NCBI GenBank assembly: GCA_913009825.1
Contig: CAJVYQ010000018.1
Location: 1-64,000, forward strand
DNA: 64,000 nt
Reading direction: 5' to 3'
DNA from: an uncultured Deferribacteres bacterium
GTDB lineage: Bacteria; Zhuqueibacterota; JdFR-76; DREG01
Numbering within the stretch: the first letter of the stretch is position 1; the number at the start of each line of letters is the position of its first letter. Below the pieces are notes generated by a model. The model did no database searches. It was not told the DNA's origin and saw only the letters and a list, made by a program, of their open reading frames with translations. Below are positions 21,648 through 48,892 of this stretch, piece after piece. A program made the position numbers and the translations under genes.

Positions 21648-21807
21648 GTAACTACTCAGGTGTTTTCTTTCAATCTTTTTCGCCTTGCCGTGAACGACAA
21701 GGCTAAGAAATGAAAGGGCGCTAAAGCGTCCTATTTACGATAGCATCCTTCAGGATGCTTTCATGTCTTAGCCTGAGGGTTCACTCTCAGGCGACCTGAG
21801 TAGTTAC
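21648..21807. mobile_element. Family A MITE-like element, best-preserved ends
   Basis: 160 bases. The ends GTAACTACTCAGG and CCTGAGTAGTTAC are perfect inverted repeats, and the flanks AAAATTTT / AAAATTTT extend the symmetry. The interior holds several short hairpins (GGGCGCTAAAGCGTCC, GCATCCTTCAGGATGC) and a CCTTGCCGTGAACGACAAGG stem related to the repeat at 62332. Confidence 0.75.
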
Positions 21808-23318: not shown

Positions 23319-23496
23319 GTAACGATTCAGGTATGCTTTATAATATTAACTGTAATCACGCTTCGCGTCCCTACCCGCAGCAGGGAGGCCCGCAGAGGCG
23401 GGCAAGCGCTCAGCATAGTTGTTCAAGCCATCCGTCTCAGGCGGAGTAGTCGAAGGTTTCCTGTACATCAAATAACAATTATGCCTGAGTAGTCAC
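23319..23496. mobile_element. Family A MITE-like element (long-inner-hairpin subtype)
   Basis: 178 bases from GTAACGATTCAGGTATGC to ATGCCTGAGTAGTCAC. Its interior (TTAACTGTAATCACGCTTCG, then CCTACCCGCAGCAGGGAGG) is closely related to the elements at 28187, 45340 and 48717. Confidence 0.7.
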
Positions 23497-27780: not shown

Positions 27781-27827
27781 ACCGGGATTATAATTTGATG
27801 TATCATCCCGATGTATTAAAACGAGCA

Positions 27828-27963
27828 TAATTAGTGCCTGTCCGAATTTGTCATTCCCGCATGCTTTTAGCGGGAATCCATTGCTGCACTTGAGTAGATT
27901 GCCTGCCTGTGCAGACAGGCCGGAATGATAATATCATGTGTATTTTCGAACAGACACTAATTA
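27828..27963. mobile_element. Family C MITE-like element
   Basis: 136 bases between TAATTAGTGCCTGTCCGAA and TTCGAACAGACACTAATTA. The flanks GCA and TGC extend the inverted symmetry. The interior contains ATTCCCGCATGC/GCGGGAATCC and GCCTGCCTGTGCAGACAGGC hairpins. Confidence 0.75.
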
Positions 27964-28186
27964 TGCTAAAACCAATAGAGAACCGGGTACTTATGTGAAT
28001 CCACGATTTGAAGATCGTGGAACAAATTATCAAGCACCTTTCTTCGGGCTTTCGTCCAAAAGAGCGATTATTGTGTTGTTCAGGAATTTTTTTTAGCGAG
28101 GATTTACCTTAATTCAATAAATGAATTCACGGTAAAACATTCCGGAATAACCTGGTATTGCCTATCTAAAGTTCTAAAAAATAGTT

Positions 28187-28341
28187 GTAACTACTCAGGT
28201 GCACTTGTTTTTTTATGTGCAGGAAACTTTCCACTGAGTTTATCCTGAGCTTGACGAAGTGCTCAGGCCGGCTTCAATAGCCATGCTGACCGGAGTCGAA
28301 GCGTGATTACAATTAATTCATGGAGCACACCTGAATAGTTA
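28187..28341. mobile_element. Family A MITE-like element (long-inner-hairpin subtype, reverse orientation)
   Basis: 155 bases from GTAACTACTCAGGTGCAC to a right end CACCTGAATAGTTA. It contains CTTGACGAAGTGCTCAGG and GGAGTCGAAGCGTGATTACA, in inverse orientation to the copies at 23319 and 48717. Confidence 0.7.
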
Positions 28342-28450
28342 AAAAAAATTGCAAGCAGCAAATATTTTGTTGCATGAGTTCAGTATTTTTTACTCATTTT
28401 AAAAACGGAATTTTCTTTTTCACAGAACATTTACACACACGGAGGTAAAC

Positions 28451-29932
28451 ATGAAATCAATTGTCCGGGCAGGTGCATTTTTCCTTTTCGGTTTATTGTT
28501 CATCAATGCGGTTTCGGCACAGGAATTTAGCGGAAATTTCGGCATAGGTATTTTTGCCGGCCCGCAGAAACTGGTAGGCGGCAATACTGATAAATCCATG
28601 ATTGGCCCCTGGGGCGGTGTGACTTTGTTTTTCGGTCTGTCTGACCGCGTTGTTTTAAGCTTCTCTGCGGGAGATGGCTGGACCCACTATGCAGACGCGC
28701 AAGATCCTTTCGCAAAAACCAGTGCGGCGCACTGGCAATATTTTCGCACCTGGTTATGGCCGGCGGATGTGAATTTTTCCCTCTATCTGAAAAACAACGG
28801 CAGATTCCGGCCTTATCTTCAACTTGGCGCCGGTATTTTGGTGTGGCAGTTAAATTATGAGCGCTGGGGCAGCGATCTGTTTTCTCCTTCAGGCTTCAAC
28901 AAAACAGGCACACAATACAATGCCAAAGGGAATGCGGGCCTGGGCGTTACCATTGCCCTGTCTCAACATCTTCTGTTGGATCTCAGCGGCAGGTATCATT
29001 ATCTTTACGATCAAAATCGGGACAACATCGGCGACGGCTACGATTGGGTGAAAGTAAATAATGACAATTACGGCGATGTGGTCTCCAAGCGTCCCGGCGA
29101 TGTGAATAACGGCATCCTGGAATTTCGTATCGGTTTGAACCTCTTGTTCGGCGGCCCCAAAGATAGTGATCACGATGGCATCATCGACCGTCTGGACAAA
29201 GCTCCCAACGAGCCGGAAGATTTTGACGGCTTTCAGGATGAGGACGGGGTTCCGGACCCGGACAACGACAACGACGGCATCCCGGATGTGAAAGATAAAT
29301 GCCCAAATGAACCGGAAGATATCGATGGTTTTATGGATACAGACGGCTGCCCCGATCCGGATAACGACCATGATGGTATTTTAGATAAAGATGATAAATG
29401 CCCCAACCAACCGGAGGATTTTGATGGTTTTCAGGATGCGGACGGTTGTCCCGATCCCGATAACGACGGTGACGGCATCCCCGATACCAAGGATTTATGT
29501 CCCAACAAAGCGGAAACTGTCAACGGTTATCAGGACGAAGACGGTTGTCCCGATGAAGCGCCGAAAAAGGAACCGTCGCCTATGAAAAAAGGTGTGAATT
29601 TAATCTTCCCCGGCGTCACATTTCTAACCGGCAGCGCCAAATTGACGGCTCAGGCTAAATTGACGTTGGATAATGTGTACCAGATGCTATATGATCACTC
29701 TGAAGTTGTGATTGAAATCCGCGGTTATACGGACAATACGGGTAGTGCGGCCATCAATCAGAAATTATCCGCCAAACGCGCGCAGTCGGTTAAAGAATAC
29801 CTGACGAATAAAGGAATTTCTGCAAATAAAATAGTGGCGTATGGTTACGGTGAAGAAAATCCTCTCGCCGACAATTCGACCAAAGAAGGCAGAGCAAAAA
29901 ACAGACGGATTGAGTTTGTAAGAATTAAATAG
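28451..29932 (+). CDS. OmpA-family outer-membrane protein with thrombospondin type 3 repeats
   Basis: 493-aa outer-membrane protein. Signal peptide 1-23 (INAVSAQ). An N-terminal beta-barrel-like domain (24-235) with alternating strands such as RFRPYLQLGAGILVWQLNYE. Then about four calcium-binding TSP3 repeats rich in Asp (DSDHDGIIDRLDKAP, DNDNDGIPDVKDKCP, DNDHDGILDKDDKCP, DNDGDGIPDTKDLCP; residues about 236-370). The C-terminal OmpA domain (about 385-490) has IEIRGYTDNTGSAAINQKLS and LSAKRAQSVKEYL, the peptidoglycan-binding motif ending in GRAKNRRIEF. It links outer membrane and peptidoglycan. An excellent ribosome site GGAGGT precedes ATG 28451. Common in the FCB group. Confidence 0.93.
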   Translation: MKSIVRAGAFFLFGLLFINAVSAQEFSGNFGIGIFAGPQKLVGGNTDKSMIGPWGGVTLFFGLSDRVVLSFSAGDGWTHYADAQDPFAKTSAAHWQYFRTWLWPADVNFSLYLKNNGRFRPYLQLGAGILVWQLNYERWGSDLFSPSGFNKTGTQYNAKGNAGLGVTIALSQHLLLDLSGRYHYLYDQNRDNIGDGYDWVKVNNDNYGDVVSKRPGDVNNGILEFRIGLNLLFGGPKDSDHDGIIDRLDKAPNEPEDFDGFQDEDGVPDPDNDNDGIPDVKDKCPNEPEDIDGFMDTDGCPDPDNDHDGILDKDDKCPNQPEDFDGFQDADGCPDPDNDGDGIPDTKDLCPNKAETVNGYQDEDGCPDEAPKKEPSPMKKGVNLIFPGVTFLTGSAKLTAQAKLTLDNVYQMLYDHSEVVIEIRGYTDNTGSAAINQKLSAKRAQSVKEYLTNKGISANKIVAYGYGEENPLADNSTKEGRAKNRRIEFVRIK

Positions 29933-29986
29933 GTTGTTTTTAAGTAACACTTTAATTCTTTAAAAAACAGCAAGTAATTATAAGAG

Positions 29987-30054
29987 TGTCATTCCCGAAT
30001 GCTCTTATCGGCCTGTCTGCACAGGCAGGCTGCTTAAATCATGCGGGAATGACA
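29987..30054. repeat. Long hairpin downstream of the OmpA gene
   Basis: TGTCATTCCCG at the left pairs with CGGGAATGACA at the right, with an inner GCCTGTCTGCACAGGCAGGC hairpin. The inner hairpin is shared with the family C elements. It may terminate transcription or be a stripped family C relic. Confidence 0.55.
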
Positions 30055-30153
30055 GGTTGTCTGACAATTTTTATCATTCAAAAAACGAACATATTACCGA
30101 ATTGCTATCGATTGCATTTTATTAATCCGAAAACACGCAGAAAGAGATAACCT

Positions 30154-31068
30154 ATGTTCATCACACAACCCGGCCGGATATCTCCTCATGTTCATTTCGC
30201 CGGCAACCGGATGATATGCAATTACATCATCGCCGCAAAGAAACAGCTGATTTTACTGGACGCCGGCCTCACCCTTTCCGCCGTGATTCTTGAACAGCAG
30301 ATCAACCGGCTACAAACCGGAAATTGCCGGCTGCAGGCTGTCTATCTGACCCATTCCCATTACGATCATCTGGGCAGCGTGCCCTATCTGATGAAAAAAT
30401 TCCCCGGTTTACAGACCGGCGCGCATCCTGTAGCGCAAGAAGTGATGCACAATCCCAAAGCCGTCAAACTGATGCAGGCGTTGAATGAAGAATCAGAAAA
30501 GAAGTACGCCCACCTCATCCGGCTGCCGCCGGAAGCGAAGTTCCGGCCGTTTTTAATCGACAGGATTTTCCGGGATCAGGAGATCATTTACCCGGATGAT
30601 ACTATCAGCATGCAGATTATCTACATGCCGGGGCATAGCAGAGATTCCATCGCATTTTATATTTTGCCGGATAAAGTTCTCTACTGCAGCGACGGAATCG
30701 GCGTGCCCACGCCGACCGGATTTATTCAGGCAACATTTCTCTCCAATTACGATGATTATCTTGCTTCACTTTACAAATTACAAAAGCTGGACATTGATAT
30801 CCTGGCGCTGCCTCACACCGGGGTGATCAAAGGGAGAACGGATATTCAAACTCACTTTGCCGGTTCCATTGACGAGACGGTAGCGCTGCGGGAACGGATC
30901 GCCCGGTATCTGACTGAATTTGACGGAGAAGTAGAAAAAGTTACCCGGCGGATTGCCGAAGAAGATATCGAAAAGCACCAGATCATACAGCCGAGGGAAG
31001 CGTTTATAATTAATCTGAAAGCGATGGTTGTGAAAACGAAAAGGGACATTGAAACCGGCCTTCTTTAA
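30154..31068 (+). CDS. MBL-fold metallo-hydrolase
   Basis: 304-aa cytoplasmic metallo-beta-lactamase-fold enzyme (glyoxalase II/hydrolase type). It carries the zinc ligands HSHYDHLG (residues 69-76), a His in GAHPVAQ near 91, the GHSRDS motif near 168, Asp in YCSDGIG near 185 and PHTGVIKG near 219. A helical insertion of about 45 residues after the metal motif (QEVMHNPKAVKLMQALNEES) and a long C-terminal helix set (RERIARYLTEF onwards) are like the 'hydroxyacylglutathione-hydrolase-like' subfamily acting on unknown esters or thioesters. Flanked by a hairpin on the left and repeat debris on the right. Substrate unknown. Confidence 0.88.
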   Translation: MFITQPGRISPHVHFAGNRMICNYIIAAKKQLILLDAGLTLSAVILEQQINRLQTGNCRLQAVYLTHSHYDHLGSVPYLMKKFPGLQTGAHPVAQEVMHNPKAVKLMQALNEESEKKYAHLIRLPPEAKFRPFLIDRIFRDQEIIYPDDTISMQIIYMPGHSRDSIAFYILPDKVLYCSDGIGVPTPTGFIQATFLSNYDDYLASLYKLQKLDIDILALPHTGVIKGRTDIQTHFAGSIDETVALRERIARYLTEFDGEVEKVTRRIAEEDIEKHQIIQPREAFIINLKAMVVKTKRDIETGLL

Positions 31069-31274
31069 AAATGCCGTGAATTATTTAGTTTAAGAAGGTC
31101 TGTTTCTTGAGTTTCGTTCTTTACAGAAAAAAATCTTAGCTATTCCAATTATTGATAATATTGTAATAACAGGCAAAAAAACAATTTCTGTGTCTCTTGC
31201 ATAAAGTGGAGAAATGATTAATTGCCTGGAATTTTTGAGTAATTGGAAATAAGGAAAATTACGGTAATAATTTT

Positions 31275-31621
31275 GTAACTATTCAGCTCACGTCTGTCTG
31301 ACACAGGCAGAAAACACACGAAACAATCGAATGATCTCATCTAACTTTTTTCCTGTTTTTTTTGAGTCTTTCACGGGCTGCCTGAGTAGTGACAATACCG
31401 TAACACTTTAGTTTTTTGAACAAATCCGCTTTCTCTGCGCTCTCTGCGTCTCTGCGTTTTAAAGCGCCTGTTTTTTTAACGCAGAGACGCGGAGGGCGCA
31501 GAGAAATTGAAAAAATCGTCTGCCTGTTCAGCCCGCGAATTACACGAAATCGTACGAATAGGACAAAATAGTTAACGATTCGCGTTTTTTAGCGATATTA
31601 GCGGGCAACCTGAATAGTTAC
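31275..31621. repeat. Composite family A block, left arm of a 7.4-kb inverted repeat
   Basis: 347 bases made of a 121-base family A element (GTAACTATTCAGCTCACG to CCTGAGTAGTGAC), a CTCTGCG/CGCAGAG hairpin unit, and a second family A piece ending CCTGAATAGTTACC. The whole block recurs in inverse orientation at 38981-39330, nearly identical by eye apart from a few differences (for example near the TTTTTTTAACGCAGAG segment). Confidence 0.8.
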
Positions 31622-32144
31622 CAAAAATCAGTCTTCGACTCCGCTCAGACCGGCTTAAATAGGAAGCCATAGTGAGCGGAATCGAACTGTGGCAAGTATG
31701 GAATTATGATTGGTACTTATTCAGGTATCACCCAAAAACAATAAAAACTCTGCGAACTCTGCGTTTTAATTCCTGCCCTCTTTTTTAATGCAGAGACGCG
31801 GAGGGCGCAGAGAGATAGCACAAGGGAAAAACACTTCACTATTCAGCAATTTGTGATTCCTCATCCTGCTAAATGGAGTTCACTGGTCTGTGGCAGACAG
31901 GTGAGGCCAATCTGAATAGTTACTAAGATTGATTTAATTTCAACTGTTCATTCATATTCTTAATAAATGATAAGAAATCAAAAGTTTATACTTCAGGAGA
32001 AAAATTCTTAGAACAAACTAAGTTCACATTACGAAATTGTCTTATTTCTTTATTCTTAGTGACTTAGTGACTTAGTGTCTTGGTGGCAAAAGTTTATGAA
32101 TTATTCAGGAGACAGAGTACCTAATTCAAACAAGAGGAGTTCCC
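31622..32144. repeat. Further repeat debris upstream of the PepT2-like gene
   Basis: Contains a degraded family A unit with the CTTCGACTCCGCTCAGAC theme ending TACTTATTCAGG (to about 31729), another CTCTGCG/CGCAGAG hairpin unit (about 31747-31815), and a short family A element from CACTATTCAG (31837) to CTGAATAGTTAC (31923). No gene is supported. The last 100 bases hold the leader of the next gene. Confidence 0.6.
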
Positions 32145-33221
32145 ATGTCCGAAAGAATGATTAAGCAGTTTATGGAAATGGTTCAAATCAGCAGCGAGTC
32201 CGGTGAAGAAGCGCAGATGATCGACTATCTTTTGCAGGAGTTTAAAAAACTTGGCGCTGAAGCGATCAAAGACAGCTACGGCAATCTGATGGCAAAAATC
32301 CCGGCGAAGGACTGTACAGGAAAAGAACCCATTTTACTTTCCTGCCATGCAGATACGGTGAAACCGGGAAAAGGGATTAAACCCAGTCTAAAAGAGGGTG
32401 TGATCCGTTCCGACGGCAGCACGATTTTGGGTGCGGATGATAAAGCCGGTATCGCTGAAATGTTGGAGGCATTGCGCATCGCTGAAATTCACCCGCCGGT
32501 GGAAGTGGCCATCAGCAGGCAGGAAGAGGTTGGCTTGTTCGGAGTTAAAAATATGGATTTTAACCTGATCAGCGCAAAGAAGGGATTTTTACTGGATAAC
32601 GATACGTTGGACACCATTGTCATCGGCGGCCCGTCCTATTTTGCCATTGATGTGGAGATCCACGGCCGGTCTGCCCATGCGGGAATGGAGCCGGAAAAGG
32701 GAATTAATGCCATTTTAGCGGCGGCAAAAGCCGTTGCCAATCTACGACTCGGACGGCTGGACGACGAAACCACCGCCAACGTGGGTGTTATTAACGGCGG
32801 CATGATTCGAAACGGCGTGCCGGACAAAGCCACTTTTTTAGCAGAATGCCGCAGCCTAAATCATGACAAAGCGCAGGCTCTGGCCGATGAGATGGTGCAA
32901 ATCATTACCGGGCAGGTCGAATCGATTCAGGCAAAAGTGGACATCAAAGTTGATAATTTGTGCAGAGCGGTGGATATCCCGGAAGATTCTCCCACGGTAC
33001 AAATGTCCAAAAGAGCGCTGCAAAGAGTGGGCATCGACGCCAAAACCACATTTATTACCGGTTTTACCGATGCTTCCATTTACAATAACACGGGCATCGA
33101 AATGGCGGTGGTTGGCATTGGCGCCCGCCTGGAGCATTCTACAGAAGAACACATTTATGTAACCGATATGGAAAAAGCGCTGCAAATGATTCTGGAAATT
33201 TTCCGTCTCTCGGCGGAATAG
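32145..33221 (+). CDS. M20 family peptidase, PepT2/tripeptidase-like
   Basis: 358-aa cytoplasmic zinc peptidase. Metal and catalytic residues of clan MH are visible: LLSCHADTVKPGKG (His and Asp, near residues 62-75), ILGADDKAGIAEML (about 94-107), SRQEEVGLFGVKN (Glu-Glu, about 125-137), LLDNDT (metal Asp near 151). The dimerisation domain begins with GRSAHAGMEPEKGINAI. The last ligand His is in LEHSTEEHIYV (about 330-340). Length and motifs fit the PepT2-like tripeptidase group. Strong ribosome site AGAGGAG before ATG 32145. Stands alone among repeats. Confidence 0.9.
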   Translation: MSERMIKQFMEMVQISSESGEEAQMIDYLLQEFKKLGAEAIKDSYGNLMAKIPAKDCTGKEPILLSCHADTVKPGKGIKPSLKEGVIRSDGSTILGADDKAGIAEMLEALRIAEIHPPVEVAISRQEEVGLFGVKNMDFNLISAKKGFLLDNDTLDTIVIGGPSYFAIDVEIHGRSAHAGMEPEKGINAILAAAKAVANLRLGRLDDETTANVGVINGGMIRNGVPDKATFLAECRSLNHDKAQALADEMVQIITGQVESIQAKVDIKVDNLCRAVDIPEDSPTVQMSKRALQRVGIDAKTTFITGFTDASIYNNTGIEMAVVGIGARLEHSTEEHIYVTDMEKALQMILEIFRLSAE

Positions 33222-33386
33222 ACCATATTGGGCGGGGATGAGAAATGTAAAAAGCCGGTTCCGGGGTTTCCAATCTGATTACTAAAATGCAGGCTTGTTC
33301 GTGAAAAGCACGAATGGAGATTTCTCTCTTCGTCCCGATAAAAACCATCGGGACTGCGCTCGAAATGACATTTACACTATTATACT

Positions 33387-33565
33387 CCTAAATTGAGCGA
33401 TTCTTAATCTAAAGTGGCAACCAATTGGGTGAAATGTCATTCAGAAGGAATCTTATTAGTTTCTTGCTAAAATTTGACAAAATTCCTCCCCGCCTGCATC
33501 GGGCAGGCTGAATGACATTTCACTCTTTGGGTGGTTGTTTTAAATATAGAATCGCTCAATTTAGG
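33387..33565. mobile_element. Family B MITE-like element
   Basis: 179 bases from CCTAAATTGAGCGATTCT to AGAATCGCTCAATTTAGG (perfect 18-base inverted ends). Inner hairpin: GTGAAATGTCATTC and its partner GAATGACATTTCAC. The same core appears in the element at 23510. Confidence 0.8.
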
Positions 33566-33631
33566 AATAACTTAAAGGGTTAAACAGATTTCTCTCCGCC
33601 TTTTGGCGGATCGAAATGACAAAAAAGTGTA

Positions 33632-33650
33632 TTTTCGGACAGACACTATT
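33632..33650. repeat. Solitary family C end
   Basis: TTTTCGGACAGACACTATT, matching the right end of family C elements at 20112 and 27828. A matching left end was not found nearby, so this is probably a truncated copy. Confidence 0.45.
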
Positions 33651-33827
33651 TAGTGTGGTTTGCGGGCAGAACCGGGCAAAATATTTTATTTTTATCTTGA
33701 TATTCTAAAAAAAAATCATTAATCTTTTGCCTGTGATGTTGTTGTGCAATCTTATGTTACTTTTCGCTTTCCCGATCGTATTTAAGATTCGATGTGCCGC
33801 ATTTGATCTTTCTCCGGAGATTCGATA

Positions 33828-34793
33828 ATGAGGAAGTTATTCTTTCCTGTTTTTCTTTTCATTTTTATCCCTGTTTCCGGTTATGCCCAGACAACTATTC
33901 AGCCTGCCGGCAAACCGCAAAGAATCTCCATGAAAGATCATTTTTTTATGCGGCCTTCCTGGGCGCCTTCCGGCGATAAATTGGCTTTCACCGGCGCCAA
34001 TCAAAAAGGGATCTGGATTTTAGAATTGTCTTCCAATGATATCTTTCAGCTTTCCGATAAATCCGGCGCCGGCTATAAATTTTCGTGGTCGCCGGACGGA
34101 GAATATATCGCTTATCGGGCGCGGTATGTGGAAAAAAAGCGAGCCCGGATGGCCATCGAAGTGGTTCAAGTTGAATCGAGAAAAATTATAAAATTATCCG
34201 CAAAGCGGAAACGGTTGGGATTGCCTCTGTGGGGGCGTGATAACAAAACCTTGTTTTTTACACGGAATGAAAAACTCTTTTCCGTCGATACCGGAATCTC
34301 TGTCACTAAAACGCTGCAAAAAAGATTTTTGCCACCGGAAAATGAGATCGTTTTTACCCGGTATCAAAAATTACAGATTGCCCAAATTGATCGACCGGAT
34401 AGTTTGGAGAAATTTTTAAAGAATACGAAAGTCATCAATCCCGTTCTCTCCCCCGACGGGAATTACATCGCCTGTGAAGAATACGTCGGTGATCTGATCG
34501 TGCTGAACCGGGCAACCGGCAAAAGAGTCGATCTTGGCACCGGACATCGCCCGGCTTGGTCTCCCGATGGTAAGTGGGTTTGCTACATGGTAACCGAGGA
34601 TGACGGTCACCGCTATTTGGCTTCCGATATTTATATTTCCAGCATCGACGGTAAGCGGCAATTTAATTTAACCCAAACCGACGAATTGTTGGAAATGAAT
34701 CCTAACTGGTCACCGGACGGAACGGCAATTGCCTATGATGAATTGCAATCCGGTGTGATTTACATCCAAAAATTGCAATACGAACAAAATTAG
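33828..34793 (+). CDS. Secreted TolB-like beta-propeller (PD40) protein
   Basis: 321-aa exported protein with signal peptide 1-21 (ending SGYAQ). At least four PD40/WD40-like blades with the typical WSPDG motif are visible: PSWAPSGDKLAFTGANQKGI, FSWSPDGEYIAYRARYV, PAWSPDGKWVCYMVT and PNWSPDGTAIAYDELQ. Related to TolB propellers; probably binds a periplasmic or surface partner. The stop is directly followed (7 bases) by the amidase gene, so the two are likely cotranscribed and may work on the same envelope process. Confidence 0.82.
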   Translation: MRKLFFPVFLFIFIPVSGYAQTTIQPAGKPQRISMKDHFFMRPSWAPSGDKLAFTGANQKGIWILELSSNDIFQLSDKSGAGYKFSWSPDGEYIAYRARYVEKKRARMAIEVVQVESRKIIKLSAKRKRLGLPLWGRDNKTLFFTRNEKLFSVDTGISVTKTLQKRFLPPENEIVFTRYQKLQIAQIDRPDSLEKFLKNTKVINPVLSPDGNYIACEEYVGDLIVLNRATGKRVDLGTGHRPAWSPDGKWVCYMVTEDDGHRYLASDIYISSIDGKRQFNLTQTDELLEMNPNWSPDGTAIAYDELQSGVIYIQKLQYEQN

Positions 34794-34800
34794 TTTGCCT

Positions 34801-37266
34801 ATGAAAAAATTTGTTACGATTTCCATTTTATTAATTTTAACAATTTCATTCTTCATCTCTCCGCTTCAAGCGCAGGATCTTTCCGGTTTGAGTATCTGCA
34901 TCGATCCTGGACATGGGATTAATACGCCCAATCAGGGACCTACCGGTCTGACGGAACATATCATCAATGTCCGCGTAGCTCGTTTTCTTGAGTCTTACCT
35001 TAAATCTGCCAATGTTGATACGGTGATTTTAACGGTTGATGAAAATAGCGTGGAACCGGGATTGTCCGCCCGGGAGGATATTGCTAATCAGAATGGTGTG
35101 GACTGGTTTCATTCCATTCATCATAATGCCTGGAACGGAAAACTGCGCTACACGCTTGTTTTGTACGAGGAAATTCCTTATCAAAAAGTTCCGGAGTGGC
35201 CGGGTGAATCGGATACCATGAGTTATCTGATGGGGTTCAATCTCTGGCAGGGTTATCGCACGACGCATTATTCGGTACGTGGGGACTGGAGTTTTTACGG
35301 CGGGGCTAATGGCGGTTTTAACCTTGGCGTTTTGAATGATTTGCAAATGCCGGGAGAGTTAAGCGAGGCCACATTTCATGATAATCCCGGTGAAGAAGTA
35401 AAATTGCGTAATCTCAATTTTCTCCAATTTGAGGGTCTTGCCCTGTATAAATCTTTTTTGCAATATTATGATGCCGGGAATTGGGGCTTTGCCCCTTTAG
35501 GCGGCATTATTTATAATAAAAAGACCAGCAAACCTATCGACGGGGCAACTGTTGTTCTGCATCCGTCAGAGCAAACATACAAGACTGATAATTATCACAA
35601 CGGATTTTACAGCTTTCCCGAACTGCAGGCAGGGAAATATGTTGTGGAAGTGACGGTACCGGGGTATGAAGCGGGTATTGATTCTATTCAGGTCGCCGAG
35701 AATGAGTTCAACTTTCTGGATTTTTATCTCTATCCGCACGAAGCGCCCATTGTTAAAAATTCACAGCCGGCAGAAATGGACTCTGCTTTTTCCCCTTATG
35801 GCATGATCGAAATTGAATTCAACCGGGAGATGAATACACAATCCGTTAAAGAGGCGCTTTCCGTTGAGCCGGATTTTCCTTACGTGCTTTTATGGAGCCC
35901 GGATCATGAAAAACTGCGCATAGATCCCAAACCGGTTTTGCTTTTTGGTATGCGTTACATTGTAACCATCGATACGATGGCTCACGATATTTTCAATCAC
36001 CCTCTCGATGGCAACGGCGACGGTATCGTCGGCGATCCGTTCCAATTGCAATTTACCACGCAAAAGATCGATTTGTCCCGTCCGCAGGTTTTGGCCACTG
36101 AACCGTTCGATCTGGACTCCAGTGTGGCAATCAGCGAGCTTGTCCGGGTAACTTTCAATAAACCGCTAAATGAGGCCGAATTGACGGAAAATAATATTTA
36201 CATCCGCGGCCCGATGCGCAAAAAGATAAAGATAAATATTTTGATAAATAATACACCTTCCGGACGAAGCATATTGACTCTTGTTCCTCTTGAACCGTTA
36301 ACGCCGGCCACCCGGTATAATGTCACCCTGGTAAAGGCTATAACGGATTCCAATCTGATTGAAATGGAAAAACACTTTCTTTTTCAGTTTTACACGGAAG
36401 AAGTGCAGCACAATTTACTCGTTATTGATAATTTGAACACCGGATTGAACAATTGGAGTGATCCGATGCAGTCGCTCAGGTCACAAAATTTTGATCCGGA
36501 CAGTACATCCTGGCTGCCCGATATCCAACTGCTGCAGGATTCAAGCCGGGTTGCCAGGTTGAACTATTCATTCCACGCCGATGGTTTGCTGGATGTGTCC
36601 CTCACCGGTTATTTGGAACCGTTCCGTGATTTACAAACGGAAGATGAAATCGGCGTTTATCTTTTTGGCGACAGCAGTCTCACCCGGTTCCGGTTTTATT
36701 TTAAGGATTCGGCAGATAGCCTGGAAGCCGGCGCCTGGCATACCATCGATTGGTATGGCTGGAAAGCCGTACATGAAAAAATCGGGATCGATTCGATTTT
36801 TGCTTTTGATGGCGGCACCGGTAGTTTAGACGGCCAGATCAGTCTGGCCGGTTTTCAATTAAAAGGGACAGAGGGTAACGAAGGGGTGTTATTTCTGGAC
36901 GATTTTTATCTGGCCGGTAAATCGATTACATCCATTGAAACCAAAAAAGAAACGACCCGGCCCAAATCCCATATTTTGGTGCAAAGCTACCCCAACCCTT
37001 TTTCCCGCAAACTGAATCACACCGGTGTGTCAATCCTGTTTAAAATTCCCAACGAAATGGGTGGCTCACCGGTGAATGTATCTATTTATAATACGCTGGG
37101 ACAGAAAGTACGTGAATTGGTGAATCAAAAATTACAACCGGGGCAATATGAAAATTTCTGGAACGGCCTGGATGAGTACAATCAGAATGTTCCGGCCGGG
37201 GTTTATTTTTTCCGGGTTCAGGTTGGCAATTTGACTGAAACCCGGCGGCTTATTATTTTAAACTGA
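34801..37266 (+). CDS. Secreted N-acetylmuramoyl-L-alanine amidase-like protein with Ig-like domains and C-terminal sorting domain
   Basis: 821-aa exported protein. Signal peptide 1-24. The amidase_3 domain (30-225) begins SGLSICIDPGHGINTPNQGP (zinc His), then HHNAWN with the metal-binding His near residue 115, and a Glu in LSEATFHDNP. Then a carboxypeptidase-like beta domain (GIIYNKKTSKPIDGATVVLH, about 240-310), two Big_5-type Ig-like domains, and a beta-sandwich region. The C-terminal about 90 residues form a FlgD-like/T9SS-type sorting domain: SYPNPFSRKLNHTGVS and YNTLGQKVRELVNQKLQPGQ. Cleaves peptidoglycan peptides or a related bond. ATG 34801 follows the upstream stop by 7 bases; a TTG two codons upstream is also possible. 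Confidence 0.87.
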   Translation: MKKFVTISILLILTISFFISPLQAQDLSGLSICIDPGHGINTPNQGPTGLTEHIINVRVARFLESYLKSANVDTVILTVDENSVEPGLSAREDIANQNGVDWFHSIHHNAWNGKLRYTLVLYEEIPYQKVPEWPGESDTMSYLMGFNLWQGYRTTHYSVRGDWSFYGGANGGFNLGVLNDLQMPGELSEATFHDNPGEEVKLRNLNFLQFEGLALYKSFLQYYDAGNWGFAPLGGIIYNKKTSKPIDGATVVLHPSEQTYKTDNYHNGFYSFPELQAGKYVVEVTVPGYEAGIDSIQVAENEFNFLDFYLYPHEAPIVKNSQPAEMDSAFSPYGMIEIEFNREMNTQSVKEALSVEPDFPYVLLWSPDHEKLRIDPKPVLLFGMRYIVTIDTMAHDIFNHPLDGNGDGIVGDPFQLQFTTQKIDLSRPQVLATEPFDLDSSVAISELVRVTFNKPLNEAELTENNIYIRGPMRKKIKINILINNTPSGRSILTLVPLEPLTPATRYNVTLVKAITDSNLIEMEKHFLFQFYTEEVQHNLLVIDNLNTGLNNWSDPMQSLRSQNFDPDSTSWLPDIQLLQDSSRVARLNYSFHADGLLDVSLTGYLEPFRDLQTEDEIGVYLFGDSSLTRFRFYFKDSADSLEAGAWHTIDWYGWKAVHEKIGIDSIFAFDGGTGSLDGQISLAGFQLKGTEGNEGVLFLDDFYLAGKSITSIETKKETTRPKSHILVQSYPNPFSRKLNHTGVSILFKIPNEMGGSPVNVSIYNTLGQKVRELVNQKLQPGQYENFWNGLDEYNQNVPAGVYFFRVQVGNLTETRRLIILN

Positions 37267-37523
37267 TACTTCTTCGTTTATTATCATCACCGTGCAAATC
37301 TCACTTTTCGTCAGAAATGATCTGCAAATTTTTACACACAATTTCTGCCATATCGGAATATTTCTCTGCAAAAATGACATACACCACAAATATTGGATCT
37401 TGTTGCTAATTTGAGTTGTGTAGCGTAACAGCTTGATATTGAATGAATTATCTTTAACAAGTCCGGTGTTTGAAAAAAAATGGCATGTATCTTGCAATTT
37501 CACGTTACGAAATTAAAATTAAA

Positions 37524-37640
37524 CCTGAATTGAGCGATTCTTTTGTTTTTAAGTTTGTTACTGTTACCAAGCGGGTTTATGGTTTTAGTGTAAATTCTGT
37601 TGGCGATTCAGCGAATCGCCCTACAATCGCTTAATTCAGG
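37524..37640. mobile_element. Family B MITE-like element in the hsp20 upstream region
   Basis: 117 bases from CCTGAATTGAGCGATTC to AATCGCTTAATTCAGG (one mismatch). The interior contains GGCGATTCAGCGAATCGCC. It ends 43 bases before the hsp20 ATG, so it may carry or affect that gene's promoter. Confidence 0.7.
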
Positions 37641-37683
37641 TTAAAGTAAGTTTAACTATAAAATTAAAAAGGAGGGCTTAAAA

Positions 37684-38133
37684 ATGACGCTGATGAAATG
37701 GAAACCTTCACGCAATTGGTTAAGTTTGCGGGACGAAATGGACCGGTTTTTTGATGATTTTTTAGGGGGTGAATTGGATCGGTTTCCGGCTGGTTTTGAG
37801 TCCAACTGGACTCCCAGTGTAGATTTACTGGAAACGGACGATGAACTGGTGGCAAAGGTAGAGCTTCCGGGAATGGATAAGAAAGATATCAATATTTCGG
37901 TACAGGATAATGTGTTGATGATCCGCGGAACCAAGAACCAGGAAAAAGAAGATAAAAATGAGAATTATCATCGGATTGAAAGAAGTTTTGGTTCCTTTCA
38001 AAGATCGTTAAGTCTGCCGGCACCGGTTGATGTGAAAAAAGTAAAAGCCAGTTATAAGGATGGCGTGTTAAAAGTTGCGCTTCCTAAAGTTCCGGAAGCC
38101 AAGGCCAAAGAGATCCCAATTACGGTAGAATAA
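37684..38133 (+). CDS. Small heat shock protein, Hsp20/alpha-crystallin family
   Basis: 149-aa ATP-independent holdase chaperone. N-terminal arm LMKWKPSRNWLSLRDEMDRF, then the alpha-crystallin domain (about 45-140) with DLLETDDELVAKVELPGMDK and KDINISVQDNVLMIRG, and the C-terminal GVLKVALPKVPEAK followed by the IPITVE tail that carries an I-x-I/V motif. Strong ribosome site AAGGAGGG. Its own strong terminator follows 15 bases after the stop, so it is a single-gene unit. Confidence 0.93.
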   Translation: MTLMKWKPSRNWLSLRDEMDRFFDDFLGGELDRFPAGFESNWTPSVDLLETDDELVAKVELPGMDKKDINISVQDNVLMIRGTKNQEKEDKNENYHRIERSFGSFQRSLSLPAPVDVKKVKASYKDGVLKVALPKVPEAKAKEIPITVE

Positions 38134-38147
38134 TGAGAGAAAAGTTG

Positions 38148-38177
38148 CGGGCGTCTGATCAGACGCCCGTATTTTTT
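38148..38177 (+). terminator. Rho-independent terminator of hsp20
   Basis: CGGGCGTCTGATCAGACGCCCG is a perfect self-complementary stem followed by TATTTTTT, 15 bases after the hsp20 stop. Confidence 0.88.
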
Positions 38178-38293
38178 ACGATGAATATTTGTTGAAAGGG
38201 ATCTGAATCCTAACATATTAAAAATGATTCTGTTGGATGAATAAACTTCCAAAGTTTTTTATTGGAATTTCAGAACTCCTGACCCATCTTCAA

Positions 38294-38500
38294 TCAAGAT
38301 GTCGCGAATTTGTAAAATAGTTGCAAATTTTTACCGGGGAATTTAGTTTTTGTTTCATTTAATAGCTGACATATTTGCCTGGCTGCATTATTGTCCCGCG
38401 GATTAGATAGAGAAAATAATTCCACGGTAAGTGTTTCATTTTTATAATCGGGGATTATGTTTGCTTTTGTTTTTATCAGGCTTTTAGCTAATGCTCCCAT
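38294..38500 (-). pseudogene. Short gene fragment, possible C-terminus of a transposase
   Basis: 68-codon frame reading TVELFSLSNPRDNNAARQIC and LLNETKTKFPGKNLQLFYK. The frame is open upstream to the edge of the family A element at 38515-38963, where it stops in the terminal repeat. The NPRDN---ICxLLNETxTxFPGxNLxLxYK pattern gives a weak impression of the C-terminal tail of an uncharacterised transposase family, but I cannot name it. Without a start or ribosome site of its own it is most likely the 3' piece of a gene broken by the neighbouring element. Confidence 0.4.
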
Positions 38501-38514
38501 TTCTTTTGTTTTTT

Positions 38515-38963
38515 GTAACTACTCAGCACATCCAGAAAAAAGTGGCCGGCCCTGAAAGACTTTAGTTAATGATTCCGGCACCTCATCAATCTTGACATAA
38601 TTAGATGTAGTGTGAAGCCTTGGTGGCAATTGTATCAGTTGCTTCTCTTTCCAGGCGTAATAAAAGCTCACGACACGCCATCTCTTTATATTGCCCGTTA
38701 GATTGCCGCCGATCCCATTTTTGACATAATTTGCGTGAAATCGCTGATCGACCTAATCTCCAATATTGTTCAACTGTGGCTCGGATAAAGGCTAAAACAT
38801 CTTCTGTGATGTGGCGATTTCTAATCTTTAGTTCATTCATTGATGATTTCTATATCTTCATATTCCATAATTATATCCTGATATGAATATATGAATTCAA
38901 TTAAGATGACGTCGATTTTTAAAAAATTTTCAAAGAATTAATTTAAACGTGCTGAGTAGTTAC
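38515..38963. mobile_element. Family A element carrying a DUF4338/DruA-like gene fragment
   Basis: 449 bases between GTAACTACTCAGCAC and the perfect inverse GTGCTGAGTAGTTAC. Longest complete family A element in the window, and the only one with coding sequence: on the minus strand a leader of about 120 bases is followed by the 5' part of a DUF4338-like gene that ends at a stop codon formed inside the terminal repeat. It abuts the composite block at 38981. Confidence 0.75.
38519..38840 (-). pseudogene. DUF4338 (DruA-like) gene fragment
   Basis: From ATG 38840 the frame reads MNELKIRNRHITEDVLAFIR, then VEQYWRLGRSAISRKLCQKW, then QSNGQYKEMACRELLLRLER. This is the pattern I recall at the start of DUF4338 (DruA) proteins, which have a K-M-A-C-R-x-LLLRLE stretch. 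A one-base frameshift near 38650 follows, after which the other frame continues KQLIQLPPRLHTTSNYVKID and then runs to TAG at 38519-38521 within the terminal repeat. The family's C-terminal two thirds are missing. Cannot be functional. Identification is from memory. Confidence 0.6.
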
Positions 38964-38980
38964 TAAATAATACAAATTAT

Positions 38981-39330
38981 GTAACTATTCAGGTTGCCCG
39001 CTAATATCGCTGAAAAACGCGAATCGTTCACTATTTTGTCCTATTCGTATGATTTTCGTGTAATTCGCGTGCTGAACAGGCAGACGATTTTTTCAATTTC
39101 TCTGCGCCCTCCGCGTCTCTGTGTTAAATAAATAGGCGCTTTAAAACGCAGAGACGCAGAGAGCGCAAAGGAAGCGGATTTGTTCAAAAAACTAAAGTGT
39201 TACGGTATTGTCACTACTCAGGCAGCCCGCGAAAGACTCAAAAAAAAAACAGGAAAAAAGTTAGATGAGATCATTCGATTGTTTCGTGTGTTTTCTGCTT
39301 GTGTCAGACAGACGTGAGCTGAATAGTTAC
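38981..39330. repeat. Composite family A block, right arm of a 7.4-kb inverted repeat
   Basis: 350 bases from GTAACTATTCAGGTTGCCCG to GTGAGCTGAATAGTTAC, the inverse of the block at 31275-31621. The same order of family A half, CTCTGCG/CGCAGAG hairpin, spacer and second family A element is present, reversed. Confidence 0.8.
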
Positions 39331-39469
39331 CAGATTATGATGAACTCGTAGAGAGTCATAAATCATTCTAAATAATTAGTAATAAGTATGATAGGCAAGA
39401 ATAACTATTGCATTTAGTGATAAAAGCACTTATCTTATCTTCATATAAAACAGAAGGATAAGATAAAAG

Positions 39470-40027
39470 ATGGTAGAGAATAAAAAACGTGACAATTCAT
39501 GTTTCCCAGGTATGGAATCCTGGAGTAGTATTTTAAATGAATGAAAGATCAAACTTCTCAAAAGTTCGTAGGCCGGAGTGTTTCGAGATCATCTTTTAGA
39601 GACCTTGCCGATATATGCGGTCAGTCTCCATTTCTCAAAAACGATGGACCTTCCGAAAGAATTGGTTACGGTGGTTGAAGCGTGCGTATTTCAACAAGTG
39701 TTTGATCTAACCGACATCGAGACGCGAGATCAATTGGCATTTAATGAACAATGGCATTATGCATTAGAAAGTTTTAATCCAAAGGATCATGTTATATCAC
39801 TCAAGATATTGTGGAGTATGCGAAATTTTTTGGTTAGTGACAACCTGGCAAAGGAGACATTTTCAAAATCAGCCGATAAGTTGACGGACGTATATCATGT
39901 AGCTACATGTTTACAACGTCTTGATTCGGTTTATATTCAATCCAACATGGCTCAATTAGGGCGTGTACGTTTATTAAGTTGTACGATAACCGGATTTTTA
40001 AAGAACATAGCTTTGCAAATTAATTAA
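39470..40027 (+). pseudogene. Transposase remnant (DUF772-type N-terminus)
   Basis: ATG 39470 starts a frame (MVENKKRDNSCFPGMESWSS) that stops at about 39544. A second frame from about 39578 reads FRDHLLETLPIYAVSLHFSK, FQQVFDLTDIETRDQLAFNE and QWHYALESFNP, then RLDSVYIQSNMAQLGRVRLL. The FDLTDxET--QLAFNxQWHYAL and QRLDSxxIxSNMxxLGR motifs are typical of the first third of DUF772-containing transposases (IS1182/ISNCY-like). The catalytic DDE core is missing. Two frame breaks and truncation make this a dead insertion sequence. Confidence 0.7.
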
Positions 40028-40097
40028 AAAGTTAGAAAAAAGGTTTACTTTTTATTAATTTGTTGAGTGAGTGGGAAAGGCTAAGGAGAAAAGAATA

Positions 40098-40237
40098 ATG
40101 TCATATAAAGACTTCACCGAAATGCCGGTTTGGAAAAAAGCAATTATGAGATAGTTAGCCAAATATTAACCTCCTGTGCCTTAAAATATATATCAAAGGA
40201 AGAGGGAAAAGAAATGTTGGCAATACAATGTAGTTAA
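40098..40237 (+). pseudogene. Four-helix-bundle (23S rRNA IVP-like) gene remnant
   Basis: ATG 40098 gives MSYKDFTEMPVWKKA followed by an early stop. In another frame, after an apparent deletion, the sequence reads LKYISKEEGKEMLAI and stops at 40235. Both ends match the well-known small four-helix-bundle protein family (S23/intervening-sequence protein, about 120 aa), whose middle is missing here. Identification by pattern memory. Confidence 0.5.
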
Positions 40238-40307
40238 ATCCATATAACTTTGAAATTTCGGTACATTTAAATATGGAGAAAGTTATGGTAAAAACATTTT
40301 TCCTTAT

Positions 40308-42139
40308 TCTGCAACTACTATTGTGGACAGCACCGATGTTGCCCGCGGCGTGCAGATTGCGCTGGGCCAGCCGTCGCTGGTCACCCAGGCAGAGAGGTGC
40401 AAAAACAAATTATCAATCTTTATCACGAGGCAGGCTTTAAAGTTCAATGGATAATTCAATTGATGTATGATCACGACTTCGGTTGGGCAAACCCACGACC
40501 CGTAGCGTATTATGACAGATGGAAACAGGAGTTTCGCGAGAAAATTACCGTCAGGGAAGCAGGGTTTCTCGACAGTTTGGGAGTAGAAATGATTCTCTTT
40601 TCGGATGTCTTGCCAGTTTTTGTCGACAGCAGCAACAACATGAATATCACCCTGCCCCTTGCTAATCAGGTCATAAATGAATTCAGGCAAAACTATTCCG
40701 GGACCGTCGGTTCGTTCGAACTGCTTTTTGGCCCACCGGAAGACTCTCCTGATTTTGAACAAATATTTAATCACAGCATCATTGATTTCGGCCAGACTGA
40801 ATTTTACAAACAACTGTATCAGAACTTCGATTATGTCGAGATTTCTTTTCAGCCCAACATCACCCGATTGAATGATCCGTCGGTCGAGCAGCTCCGGAAT
40901 CAATTTGAAGTCATTCTGCACGACTATGTCAAGCCACTCTTCGATGTGGTCCAGAAGCCTTTATATTTAGAGACCATTTTTCCCAGTTATGATGGCGCTA
41001 ATATAAACACTTCACGGGTGTTTACCTTCTTTTTCTCGACTGACATCACTATCGACATCACCGATTCCACCGGCATTGTTCCAGGTGCGAGCTTTGGTGG
41101 AAATCTGGCCTGGGGTGACTATAACAACGATGGATATCTGGATATCTATATGACCCGCGGTGATTTCATGTCTGCCAACCTCTACAAAAATAACGGCAGC
41201 GGCACCTTTACAGATGTCACGATCTCGGCTGGCGTGGGGTTGCAAAAAGCAAACGCCGTGGCCTGGGCCGATGTCGACAACGATGGTGATCTCGATCTGT
41301 TTGTCACGCGCCCAGCCGTGATAGATTCTCCTTATGTGCTGTTCAGAAACAACGGCGACGGTACGTTCACGGATATTGCGTTACTCGCTAATATGGTTCG
41401 TGACTCCTGGTTTCCTGGAAATGATGGAGCAACACCAGGGCAAGGGGCTGCCTGGAGTGACTTCAACAACGATGGTAGGGTCGATCTTTTCGTCGCTAAC
41501 AATACGCCGCCGGATTTTCTGTTTGAGAACCGCGGCAACGGCGCGGGGAATCATTATCTAACGATCAAACTGATTGGCAAAGAGAGCAATCGTTCAGCCA
41601 TCGGTGCACGTGTTAAAATAGAAGCTGGCGGCATCAAGCAAATTCGTGGAGTCGAAGGGGGCGCCAACACCTCGCAAAACAGCCTGCCGGTGGAATTCGG
41701 TTTGGGCCAGGCGCATCAGGTGGATAAAATCGCTATTCGCTGGCCGTCGGGACTGGAAGAGTCCACAGTTCGTTCGGTGGCAGCAGACCAAATTATAACC
41801 ATTACTGAAGGCGCTGTGAATGTGGTGGGAGTGGCAGAAGACGCCGACTCCGGTGTGCCGGAAAAATTTCGCTTATTTCAGAACTACCCGAATCCGTTTA
41901 ATCCTGCTACCACTGTCCAATATCAAATACCGCAAGCCGGGTATGTGATCTTAAAAATCTACAATTTGACCGGGCAGGAAGTGCAGACGCTGGTGGACGA
42001 AGTCAAACAGTCCGGTATTTACAAAATTACCTGGGATGGGAAAAACCGTCAAGGCCGAACTGTCGGCACAGGTATGTATGTAATTCGGATGAAGGCTGGT
42101 GAATTTACTAAGAGTAAAAAGATCGTACTTTTAAAATAG
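40308..42139 (+). pseudogene. Truncated FG-GAP/VCBS-ASPIC surface protein with C-terminal sorting domain
   Basis: The long open frame (40397-42139, GTG start) has no signal peptide. Upstream, another frame (40308-about 40396) reads TIVDSTDVARGVQIALGQPS and then VTQAE, which joins the long frame by a one-base shift, so the 5' part of a larger gene is gone. Residues about 1-205 look like part of a TIM-barrel domain. They switch abruptly near residue 212 to FG-GAP repeats (GDYNNDGYLDIYMTRG, ADVDNDGDLDLFVTRP, SDFNNDGRVDLFVANN), then an ASPIC/UnbV domain (IRWPSGLEESTVR), and a complete sorting domain: YPNPFNPATTVQYQIP and WDGKNRQGRTVGTGMYVIRM. Probably a fusion made by deletion. It might still be transcribed but cannot be secreted normally. 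Confidence 0.65.
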
Positions 42140-42336
42140 GCTGTTCAGCATCTGGAAGATAAGACAAAATAAATCCTGGGACGGATAACAAAAGGTTCAT
42201 CGTGGCCAAACCGCTATGCTTCTGTCGTAGTTCGGTGGTTGAATTTACAGTTTGATGCATTGTATCTGTTCTGTGTAAGCGCTTTGGCAGGTTACCCTTA
42301 GCGTTACTTTACAAACAAATCCAATTCGGAGGAACC

Positions 42337-43188
42337 ATGGATAAAAAAAAAGTAATGGTCATCGGCGCGGGAACCATGGGGAACGGTATCGCCCATGTTT
42401 TTGCCCAAAATGGATATATGGTTCATTTGGTAGATATTAAACAGGAATTTTTAGACCGGGCAATGAACGCCATCAGTAAAAATCTTGACCGGCAGGTTAA
42501 AAAAGAGATCATCACTCCGGCGGGAAAGGAAGCAGCATTGGCGCGTATCGACACGGAAACAGATTTTAGCGCCGGTAAGGATGCGTTTCTCTTTGTGGAA
42601 GCGGTGCCGGAAAATGCCGACTTAAAAATTGATCTTTTTAAAAAATTGGATCAGACAGCGGGACCAGATGCCATTTTAGCTTCTAACACGTCTTCCATTT
42701 CTATCACGGAATTAGCCGCGGTTACCGGGCGGCCTGAGAAAGTGATCGGCATGCATTTTATGAATCCGGTGCCGGTGATGAAGTTGATCGAAGTGATCCG
42801 CGGTTTGAGCACGTCGGATGCAACGTATCGGCAAATCATGGAAATCAGCAAAACCCTGGGCAAAGTTCCTGTGGAAGTGCATGATTATCCAGGATTCATT
42901 GCCAACCGGGTTTTAATGCCCATGATCAACGAAGCTATTTTCTGTTTGATGGAGGGTGTTGCCTCCGAAGAAGCAATCGATACGGTGATGAAACTGGGAA
43001 TGAATCACCCCATGGGCCCCCTGGCGCTGGCGGATTTCATCGGCCTGGATGTGTGTCTGCATATTCTGAAGGTTCTTCATGAAGGTCTGGGCGATCCCAA
43101 ATACCGTCCCTGTCCTCTGCTGAAAAAAATGGTGGCCGCCGGGCACCTGGGACGCAAAACCGGGAAAGGTTTTTACGATTACAAATAA
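42337..43188 (+). CDS. hbd: 3-hydroxybutyryl-CoA dehydrogenase
   Basis: 283-aa NAD(P)-dependent dehydrogenase that oxidises 3-hydroxybutyryl-CoA or reduces acetoacetyl-CoA in short-chain acyl-CoA metabolism. NAD-binding motif [20 protein letters not shown] at residues 6-25. The catalytic His-Glu region is [20 protein letters not shown] (near residue 140), and [19 protein letters not shown] (near 184) follows. The C-terminus [15 protein letters not shown] is characteristic. Single domain, family-normal length. Strong ribosome site GGAGGAACC; the acyl-CoA dehydrogenase gene follows after 14 bases, so the two form an operon for a butyrate/crotonyl-type pathway. Direction in vivo is not evident. 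Confidence 0.93.
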
Positions 43189-43202
43189 AAAAAGAGGTAA
43201 AT

Positions 43203-44345
43203 ATGGATTTCGAGTTAACCGAAGAACAGAAAATGGTGCAACAAACCGCCCGTTCCTTTGCGCAGGAAGTTTTAGCAAAAACCGTTGCCGAACGGGATGC
43301 GGAAGAAAGATTTCCGTATGATGAAGTGAAACAGATGGCCGAATTAGGTTTTATGGGAATTGCCGTTCCGGAAGAATATAACGGCTCCGGTCTGGATATT
43401 GTCAGCTACGCAGTGATGATAGAAGAGCTGGCAAAAGTGGATGCGTCAGCGGCCGTTGTGGTTTCTGTGAACAATTCGCTTGTTTGTGATATTTTACTTA
43501 AATTTGCCGACGATGAACAAAAGGAGAAATATCTCAAACCGCTGGCGAGCGGCCAAAAATTGGGCGCGTTTGCTCTTTCCGAAGCAGAGGCCGGCTCCGA
43601 TCCGGGGGGTCTGATCTGCACCGCCGGGAAGGTAGGCAATGAATATATTTTGAACGGAACTAAAAATTTCACCACCAACGGCTCAACGGCGGATGTAGTT
43701 ATTGTTTTTGCAACCATTAATAAAGAGATCGGCCATAAAGGAATTTGTGCTTTCATCGTTGAAAAAGGAACCCCGGGATTTCGTGTGTCTAAAAAGGAGA
43801 AAAAAATGGGCATCCGTAGCTCGGATACCTGCGAACTAACCTTTGAAGATTGTCATATTCCGGCGGAAAATTTGTTGTTTCAGGAAGGCAAGGGACTGAA
43901 AATTGCCTTAACGGCGCTGGATAGCGGCAGGATCGGTATTGCTTCACAAGCCATTGGTATCGCTCAGGCTTCTCTGGACACAGCTCTTGCCTACGCCAAA
44001 GAACGGAAACAATTTGGTAAAGCCATCAGCGAATTTCAGGCAACTCAGTTTAAATTTGCCGATTTGGCCACGGAAATAGATGCAGCCCGCCTGTTGATCT
44101 ATCGGGCCGCTGCGTTGAAAGATGCGGGCAAAAAGTTTGAACGGGAAGCGGCAATGGCCAAATTAAAGGCTTCCCAAATTGCCGTCCGGGCTTCCGACGA
44201 AGCGGTTCAAATATTGGGTGGGTACGGTTACATTACAGATTTTCCTGTGGAAAGATATTTCCGGGACGCAAAAATAACGGAATTGTACGAAGGGACAAGC
44301 GAAATCCAAAAATTAGTGATCGCCCGGCAGCTTCTGCGCGAATAG
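43203..44345 (+). CDS. Acyl-CoA dehydrogenase (short-chain/butyryl-CoA type)
   Basis: 380-aa FAD-dependent enzyme that introduces the alpha-beta double bond in acyl-CoA (or, with electron-transfer flavoprotein, reduces crotonyl-CoA). N-terminal MDFELTEEQKMVQQTARSFA, FAD-contacting LGAFALSEAEAGSDPGG (near 120-136), SSDTCELTFEDCHIPAENLL, and the C-terminal QILGGYGYITDFPVERYFRD and ITELYEGTSEIQKLVIARQL with the catalytic base Glu in YEGTSE. Length and motifs match Bcd-like short-chain dehydrogenases. Ribosome site AGAGG before ATG 43203. No etfAB genes are visible in the window. Confidence 0.93.
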   Translation: MDFELTEEQKMVQQTARSFAQEVLAKTVAERDAEERFPYDEVKQMAELGFMGIAVPEEYNGSGLDIVSYAVMIEELAKVDASAAVVVSVNNSLVCDILLKFADDEQKEKYLKPLASGQKLGAFALSEAEAGSDPGGLICTAGKVGNEYILNGTKNFTTNGSTADVVIVFATINKEIGHKGICAFIVEKGTPGFRVSKKEKKMGIRSSDTCELTFEDCHIPAENLLFQEGKGLKIALTALDSGRIGIASQAIGIAQASLDTALAYAKERKQFGKAISEFQATQFKFADLATEIDAARLLIYRAAALKDAGKKFEREAAMAKLKASQIAVRASDEAVQILGGYGYITDFPVERYFRDAKITELYEGTSEIQKLVIARQLLRE

Positions 44346-44390
44346 GCCGGCGCACATTTTGACGGAGTATCCTGCCCGGGTTTTTGTAAT

Positions 44391-44516
44391 CTTAATTGAG
44401 CGATTGTAGATCGATTCGCTGGATCGATCACCTCATTTAATGGATTTATTCGAAATAGTGAAAATCCGTTGAGTAACAAAAATATGCTTATAAACCGGAA
44501 AATTGCTCAATTTAGG
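44391..44516. mobile_element. Family B MITE-like element
   Basis: 126 bases from CTTAATTGAGCGATTG to AATTGCTCAATTTAGG (degenerate left end). The inner part contains GATCGATTCGCTGGATCGATC. It sits between the acyl-CoA dehydrogenase and nusB genes. Confidence 0.6.
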
Positions 44517-44725
44517 TATGAAAAAATCCCGCTTTGATGTAATTTCCGGAAGTTCTGTTCCGTCTAAGGCCGGTTGCGGAAAAATAACCGGATTATCACT
44601 TGTTTCATGTGAAGTAAATTATTACATTAAAATCAGTATCATCGATGCCAAAAACTTTGTGAAACTATACGTAAATTCTAATGAATAAATTAAATTATTC
44701 CCAAAACAGGTAGGTTCATTTATCC

Positions 44726-45181: not shown

Positions 45182-45204
45182 TCAGGAGACAAAAAACAAG
45201 ACAG

Positions 45205-45339: not shown

Positions 45340-45463
45340 GTAACTATTCAGGTATGCCGGTTTCCTGATGTGAGATAATCCTTCGACTTTGCTCAGGCTG
45401 GCCTTGAAAGCCATGCTCAGCGGAGTCGAAGTGTGATTACAATGAGTATACTTGAATAGTTAC
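45340..45463. mobile_element. Family A MITE-like element upstream of secA
   Basis: 124 bases from GTAACTATTCAGGTATGC to ATACTTGAATAGTTAC. Interior CTTCGACTTTGCTCAGG and GGAGTCGAAGTGTGATTACA as in the copy at 28187. The right end is 96 bases from the secA start. A stray CTGAATAGTAAC (45534-45545) lies between them. Confidence 0.7.
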
Positions 45464-48716: not shown

Positions 48717-48892
48717 GTAACTACTCAGGTATGCACCATGAATTAACTGTAATCACGCTTCGACTCCCTGCCCGTAGCAGGCAGGCGTTCAGCATGGCTA
48801 TTTATGCCGGCCCGAGCCTCTTCGTAAAGCTCGGGGTAAACTCAGTCGCAGGCTTCCTGCACATCAAACAATAAGCATGCCTGAATAGTCAC
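48717..48892. mobile_element. Family A MITE-like element downstream of secA
   Basis: 176 bases from GTAACTACTCAGGTATGC to ATGCCTGAATAGTCAC, closely similar to the copy at 23319 (same TTAACTGTAATCACGCTTCG and CCTGCCCGTAGCAGGCAGG hairpin). It begins 15 bases after the secA stop and may act as its 3' end. Confidence 0.7.

Follow-up and report, generated by a model that had tools for sequence, protein, structure and literature searches.

The two inverted repeats that bracket a block of genes in the window (the whole stretch of DNA analysed, 64,000 nucleotides) very probably arose by separate insertion of the same MITE, which has no gene, is non-autonomous and derives from an ISBst12-group element (IS66 family). 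The sequence-only reading had described near-identical inverted repeats of ~350 bp situated 7.4 kb apart. The repeats turned out to be real, with 96.0% identity in the full-length alignment of 31275-31621 (forward strand, arm 1) with 38981-39330 (reverse strand, arm 2). Their cause is ordinary: a MITE of the ISBst12 type, present in many copies, accounts for both.

The arms and their family in the genome

The inverted-repeat search returned three consecutive paired segments of 97, 194 and 75 nt, with identities of 96-97%, covering 31267-31621 and 38981-39338. Within these segments the element itself measured 347 bp in arm 1 and 350 bp in arm 2, with a spacer of 7,359 bp (Table 1). Both arms start at GTAACTATTCAG and end at CTGAATAGTTAC, its reverse complement; the 12-bp ends, which form the terminal inverted repeat GTAACTAYTCAG, are perfect in both. 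Both arms are intergenic, no ORF of at least 80 aa was found in either of them, and neither codes for a transposase. The genes previously listed as lying between them were named correctly and encode an M20 peptidase (PepT-like), a PD40/TolB-like protein, Amidase_3 and HSP20.

For the element, folding predicted a long hairpin with imperfect pairing (-125.8 kcal/mol, z -7.55). No Rfam match to a known structured RNA was found within 27000-46000. We also observed an end-like motif, GTCACTACTCAG, inside the arms at 31382-31393 and 39210-39221, 119-121 bp from one end. Given this internal motif, a shorter MITE joined to additional sequence may have given rise to the 347-bp MITE.

Table 1. Coordinates of the MITE copies, their ends and duplications, and related features of the window
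Feature	Coordinates	Strand	Remarks
MITE copy 1 (left arm), ISBst12/IS66-type ends	31275..31621	+	347 bp; own target duplication not recognisable (3/8)
MITE copy 2 (right arm), inverse orientation	38981..39330	-	350 bp, same element as copy 1
Left target-site duplication of copy 2, CAAATTAT	38973..38980		From sequence; 7/8 against the right one
Right target-site duplication of copy 2, CAGATTAT	39331..39338		From sequence
Terminal inverted repeat of copy 1, GTAACTATTCAG	31275..31286	+	End-motif search
Terminal inverted repeat of copy 1, other end	31610..31621	-	End-motif search
Terminal inverted repeat of copy 2	38981..38992	+	End-motif search
Terminal inverted repeat of copy 2, other end	39319..39330	-	End-motif search
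Central palindrome of copy 1, core of the hairpin fold	31430..31506		34-nt arms, 88%; inverted-repeat search and folding
DruA/DUF4338 remnant, 449 bp, single copy	38515..38963	-	15-bp perfect ISBst12-type ends GTAACTACTCAGCAC
160-bp sister MITE	21648..21807		Perfect 8-bp target duplication AAAATTTT
178-bp sister MITE	23319..23496		Degenerate ends
156-bp sister MITE	28187..28342		Target duplication 6/8
124-bp sister MITE	45340..45463		Target duplication 6/8
176-bp sister MITE	48717..48892		Degenerate ends

With arm 1 as the query, at least 40 main places were detected in the assembly (5.1 Mb in 123 contigs); 30 of these places were full length with identities from 93 to 100%. Additional truncated copies of the element sit at contig ends; the number of copies given here is therefore a minimum, and it is at these repeats that the assembly is broken. 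The same should be taken as a warning for genomes of this kind, whose contigs break at such repeats.

The 12-mer GTAACTAYTCAG occurred 440 times genome-wide (223 forward and 217 reverse), while the control, the motif read backwards, gave 0 and 0. In the window alone, 22 end motifs with at most one mismatch were found, compared to 0.17 expected. For 36 neighbouring end pairs in 698 kb of sampled sequence, we surveyed the flanks for target duplications and found perfect identity at a length of exactly 8 bp in 17 pairs, and in none at 5-7 or 9-12 bp. In the 347-bp subfamily, a duplication of at least 7/8 was present in 24 of 28 copies (perfect in 18), compared to only 13 of 756 control comparisons between flanks of mismatched copies. 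The target sites were A/T-rich. Sister subfamilies of ~56-250 bp have the same ends, and five sister copies lie in the window (Table 1). These features are those of a MITE: the element is short and gene-less, with 12-bp terminal inverted repeats, 8-bp duplications in most copies, a high dispersed copy number and a hairpin. A large expansion of MITEs, with its 440 end-motif copies and several subfamilies, is documented here in a poorly studied lineage.

The sequence directly to the right of arm 1 (31622-31923) is again degenerate and rich in repeats; it contains a solitary MITE end at 31912-31923 as well as the motif CGCAGAGACGC. Motifs of the CGCAGAGACGC type, which also make the core of the MITE hairpin, are found in three tandem units of ~349 bp at 62577-63449 of the window. 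Strong enrichment of the GTAACTAYTCAG end motif was also observed in five genomes of the same phylum (G062, G073, G079, G066 and G080), with 30-104 copies per genome compared to 0-2 in controls, and related MITE expansions therefore exist elsewhere in the phylum.

Probable kinship with the ISBst12 group of IS66

Autonomous elements with ends of this type were found in the same phylum. In G037, a 1523-bp element is bounded on both sides by GTAACTACTCAG and carries one gene, for a 476-aa IS66-family transposase; in G079, which has 93 copies of the end motif, a 1508-bp element shows the same layout with the gene degraded. Neither of the two has a clear target duplication of its own. Perfect 8-bp duplications were observed for three elements on sequenced plasmids: ISGst1 of Geobacillus (ends GTAACTATTCAG, duplication AAAAGAAC), an IS66 element of Leptolyngbya (ends GTAACTACTCAG, duplication ATCAGCGG) and an IS66 element of Chlorohelix (ends GTAACAATTCAG, duplication TTCAATTT). 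For ISDge4 of the ISBst12 group, a published description gives GTGACTACTCAGCA / GTAACTGCTCAGCA as the ends and CCTCGATG as the 8-bp repeat (PMC12898284). Since the ends and the 8-bp duplication of the arms match those of ISGst1, ISDge4 and the Leptolyngbya and Chlorohelix elements, we assign the arms to MITEs of the ISBst12 type (IS66 family), a kinship suggested by the ends and by the length of the duplication.

Members of the ISBst12 group such as ISGst1 and ISDge4 share with the arms the GTAACTAYTCAG ends, or ends one or two bases off, as well as the 8-bp target duplications (PMC12898284); they differ in being ~1.5-1.6 kb long with one transposase gene, whereas the arms are ~350 bp long and gene-less. 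Similarly, bacterial MITEs such as MITEPsy1 of Pseudomonas syringae and MITEAba12 of Acinetobacter are short, gene-less and multicopy with inverted terminal repeats. However, these have other ends and another parent family, while here several hundred copies of the ends reside in one genome. Movement of bacterial MITEs is thought to take place in trans (PMC3189936).

Common ends, 8-bp duplications, high copy number and the match to the ends of the ISBst12 group are direct observations; mobilisation of the MITEs in trans by an ISBst12-type transposase is the mechanism that we infer. After recognition of the GTAAC...CAG ends, such a transposase would bring the ~350-bp unit to an A/T-rich target, where an 8-bp duplication is left behind, and in this way the family would have grown to at least 40 copies. 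Searches of the organism's own genome with profiles and with protein sequences found no IS66 transposase, which is weak evidence given the fragmented assembly, and for this reason the transposase that moved the MITEs is a deduced one. As the assembly shows no source transposase, the family is either quiescent here or has its source within an unassembled repeat.

Other accounts of the inverse pair

An inverse pair 7.4 kb apart is the expected product of random insertion of a high-copy element, and independent insertion is the simplest account of the arms. The check for flanking duplications came out differently for the two copies: arm 2 has its own duplication (CAAATTAT/CAGATTAT, 7/8), while arm 1 has no recognisable one (3/8), and the latter is a point against independent insertion.

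The missing duplication of arm 1 bears on the proposal of the sequence-only reading that the arms can drive inversion. If they acted as a hinge, recombination between them would let the 7.4-kb segment exist in two orientations. With ~350 bp at 96% identity in inverse orientation, the arms are indeed a possible substrate of homologous recombination, and the left flank of arm 1 agrees at 7/8 positions with the right flank of arm 2, as in a swapped pair. However, inversion should exchange both flanks, and the reciprocal pair (the left flank of arm 2 and the right flank of arm 1) agrees at only 3/8; with values of 7/8 and 3/8 the reciprocal test fails. Besides, arm 2 still has its own duplication, and the left flank of arm 1 agrees equally well (7/8) with the flanks of three unlinked copies that have the same A/T-rich target preference. 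An inversion read from the swapped flanks was therefore rejected, as one pair fits and the reciprocal one does not, and we saw no sign that an inversion had happened. We regard the hinge as quite improbable. Known invertible segments with inverted-repeat hinges resemble the present case in that a gene block lies between two inverse copies; the present case differs in showing no sign of two orientations and in having as its repeat a mobile element that is dispersed. With the M20 peptidase as the query, a search for the locus in eight relatives gave no match at E <= 1e-60.

A different driver of the MITEs was the candidate first favoured. At G000:C7:24728-27213, an ORF of 768 aa that joins DruA to a Tn5-type (IS4 family) transposase lies in an interval of 2486 bp between GTAACTATTCAG ends, the 12-bp ends of the MITEs. 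On the other hand, the element's own ends, CTTAACATGTCCCTCATTATTTACTG, are internal to this interval, and homologous ends flank the Brocadia copies, one of them with a 9-bp repeat, GTTTACGGG. Relatives of the protein occur without GTAACTAYTCAG ends, and genomes rich in GTAACTAYTCAG ends occur without DruA. The candidate was dropped on account of the internal ends, as seen in Brocadia, and of the IS66 element with MITE ends in G037; that the DruA-IS4 transposase drives the MITEs is now highly improbable. The element is best read as nested inside a GTAAC-ended element. A deleted relative of it, at G000:C49 (L150), likewise lies within GTAAC-type ends; both are situated beside C-rich stretches and are apparently nested insertions.

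The notion of a composite unit, in which the arms carried the 7.4-kb segment as a single transposon, draws on the gene block being bracketed by two inverted copies and has next to no probability: the outer flanks ATAATTTT and CAGATTAT differ and share no common duplication, the arms are not sister copies (their mutual identity equals the family average, ranking 15 and 6 of 27), the element is found singly at dozens of sites and no transposase is encoded in either arm; the absence of an outer duplication and of a sister relationship decided the rejection.

The DruA remnant and the patch at arm 2

The DruA fragment adjacent to arm 2 opens a more interesting question than the repeats themselves. 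The 449-bp remnant (Table 1) encodes an N-terminal fragment of DruA/DUF4338 with one frameshift; because of its shortness the fragment gives no Pfam match, and it was assigned by alignment. DruA is known from the Druantia anti-phage system.

We observed druA next to transposase genes of different families. It overlaps the start of an IS66 transposase gene by 4 bp in G045 and G060, and it lies just upstream of IS66 transposases at L182, L189 and L195 and of ISKra4 transposases at L180 and L186 (the one at L186 is truncated). At L197 and in G038, druA precedes transposase-like ORFs with merely weak or accessory-domain matches. DruA is fused to an ISAs1 transposase in Thiodictyon and to IS4/Tn5 transposases in several phyla. 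The DruA-transposase loci in our set included L107, L158, L168, L178, L180, L182, L186, L189, L195 and L197; the sample came partly from genomes already known for DruA-IS4 fusions, and the numbers are not an unbiased rate. Except for Thiodictyon, no DruA relatives were found on plasmids. Among the papers searched, none used the whole words DruA and transposase together; a looser search returned papers with both words, one of which uses them in unrelated contexts.

The predicted fold of DruA (pLDDT 77, pTM 0.61) had as its best solved match the Mom protein of phage Mu (PDB 8bv8, E 9e-6, target TM 0.60), followed by many acetyltransferases. Matches of the Pfam Mom model were below its cut-off. 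DUF4338 has been called a GNAT domain (PMC10853773).

A tentative reading, which we hold to be somewhat less than an even bet, is that the remnant arose by deletion from an IS66-type element with druA, and that DruA is a recurrent accessory module of transposons of at least four transposase families, with a Mom-like GNAT fold. It would perhaps modify DNA to protect or mark the element, and Druantia would be a later co-option. A role of DruA in transposition or DNA modification is what these associations may point to. This by-product of the analysis, the coupling to unrelated transposases together with a Mom-like predicted fold, may matter more than the repeats, and the same two features would make the role of DruA directly testable.

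The right side of the segment is an insertion-rich patch, made of the DruA remnant, the MITE and the fragment at 39335-40005 (ORF 39578-40027). The fragment, which had no Pfam match, looks like an insertion-sequence remnant. Located directly beside arm 2, it matches the 5' part of a longer element (C5) at 87% identity and then ends; the longer relative has an open frame of 551 codons.
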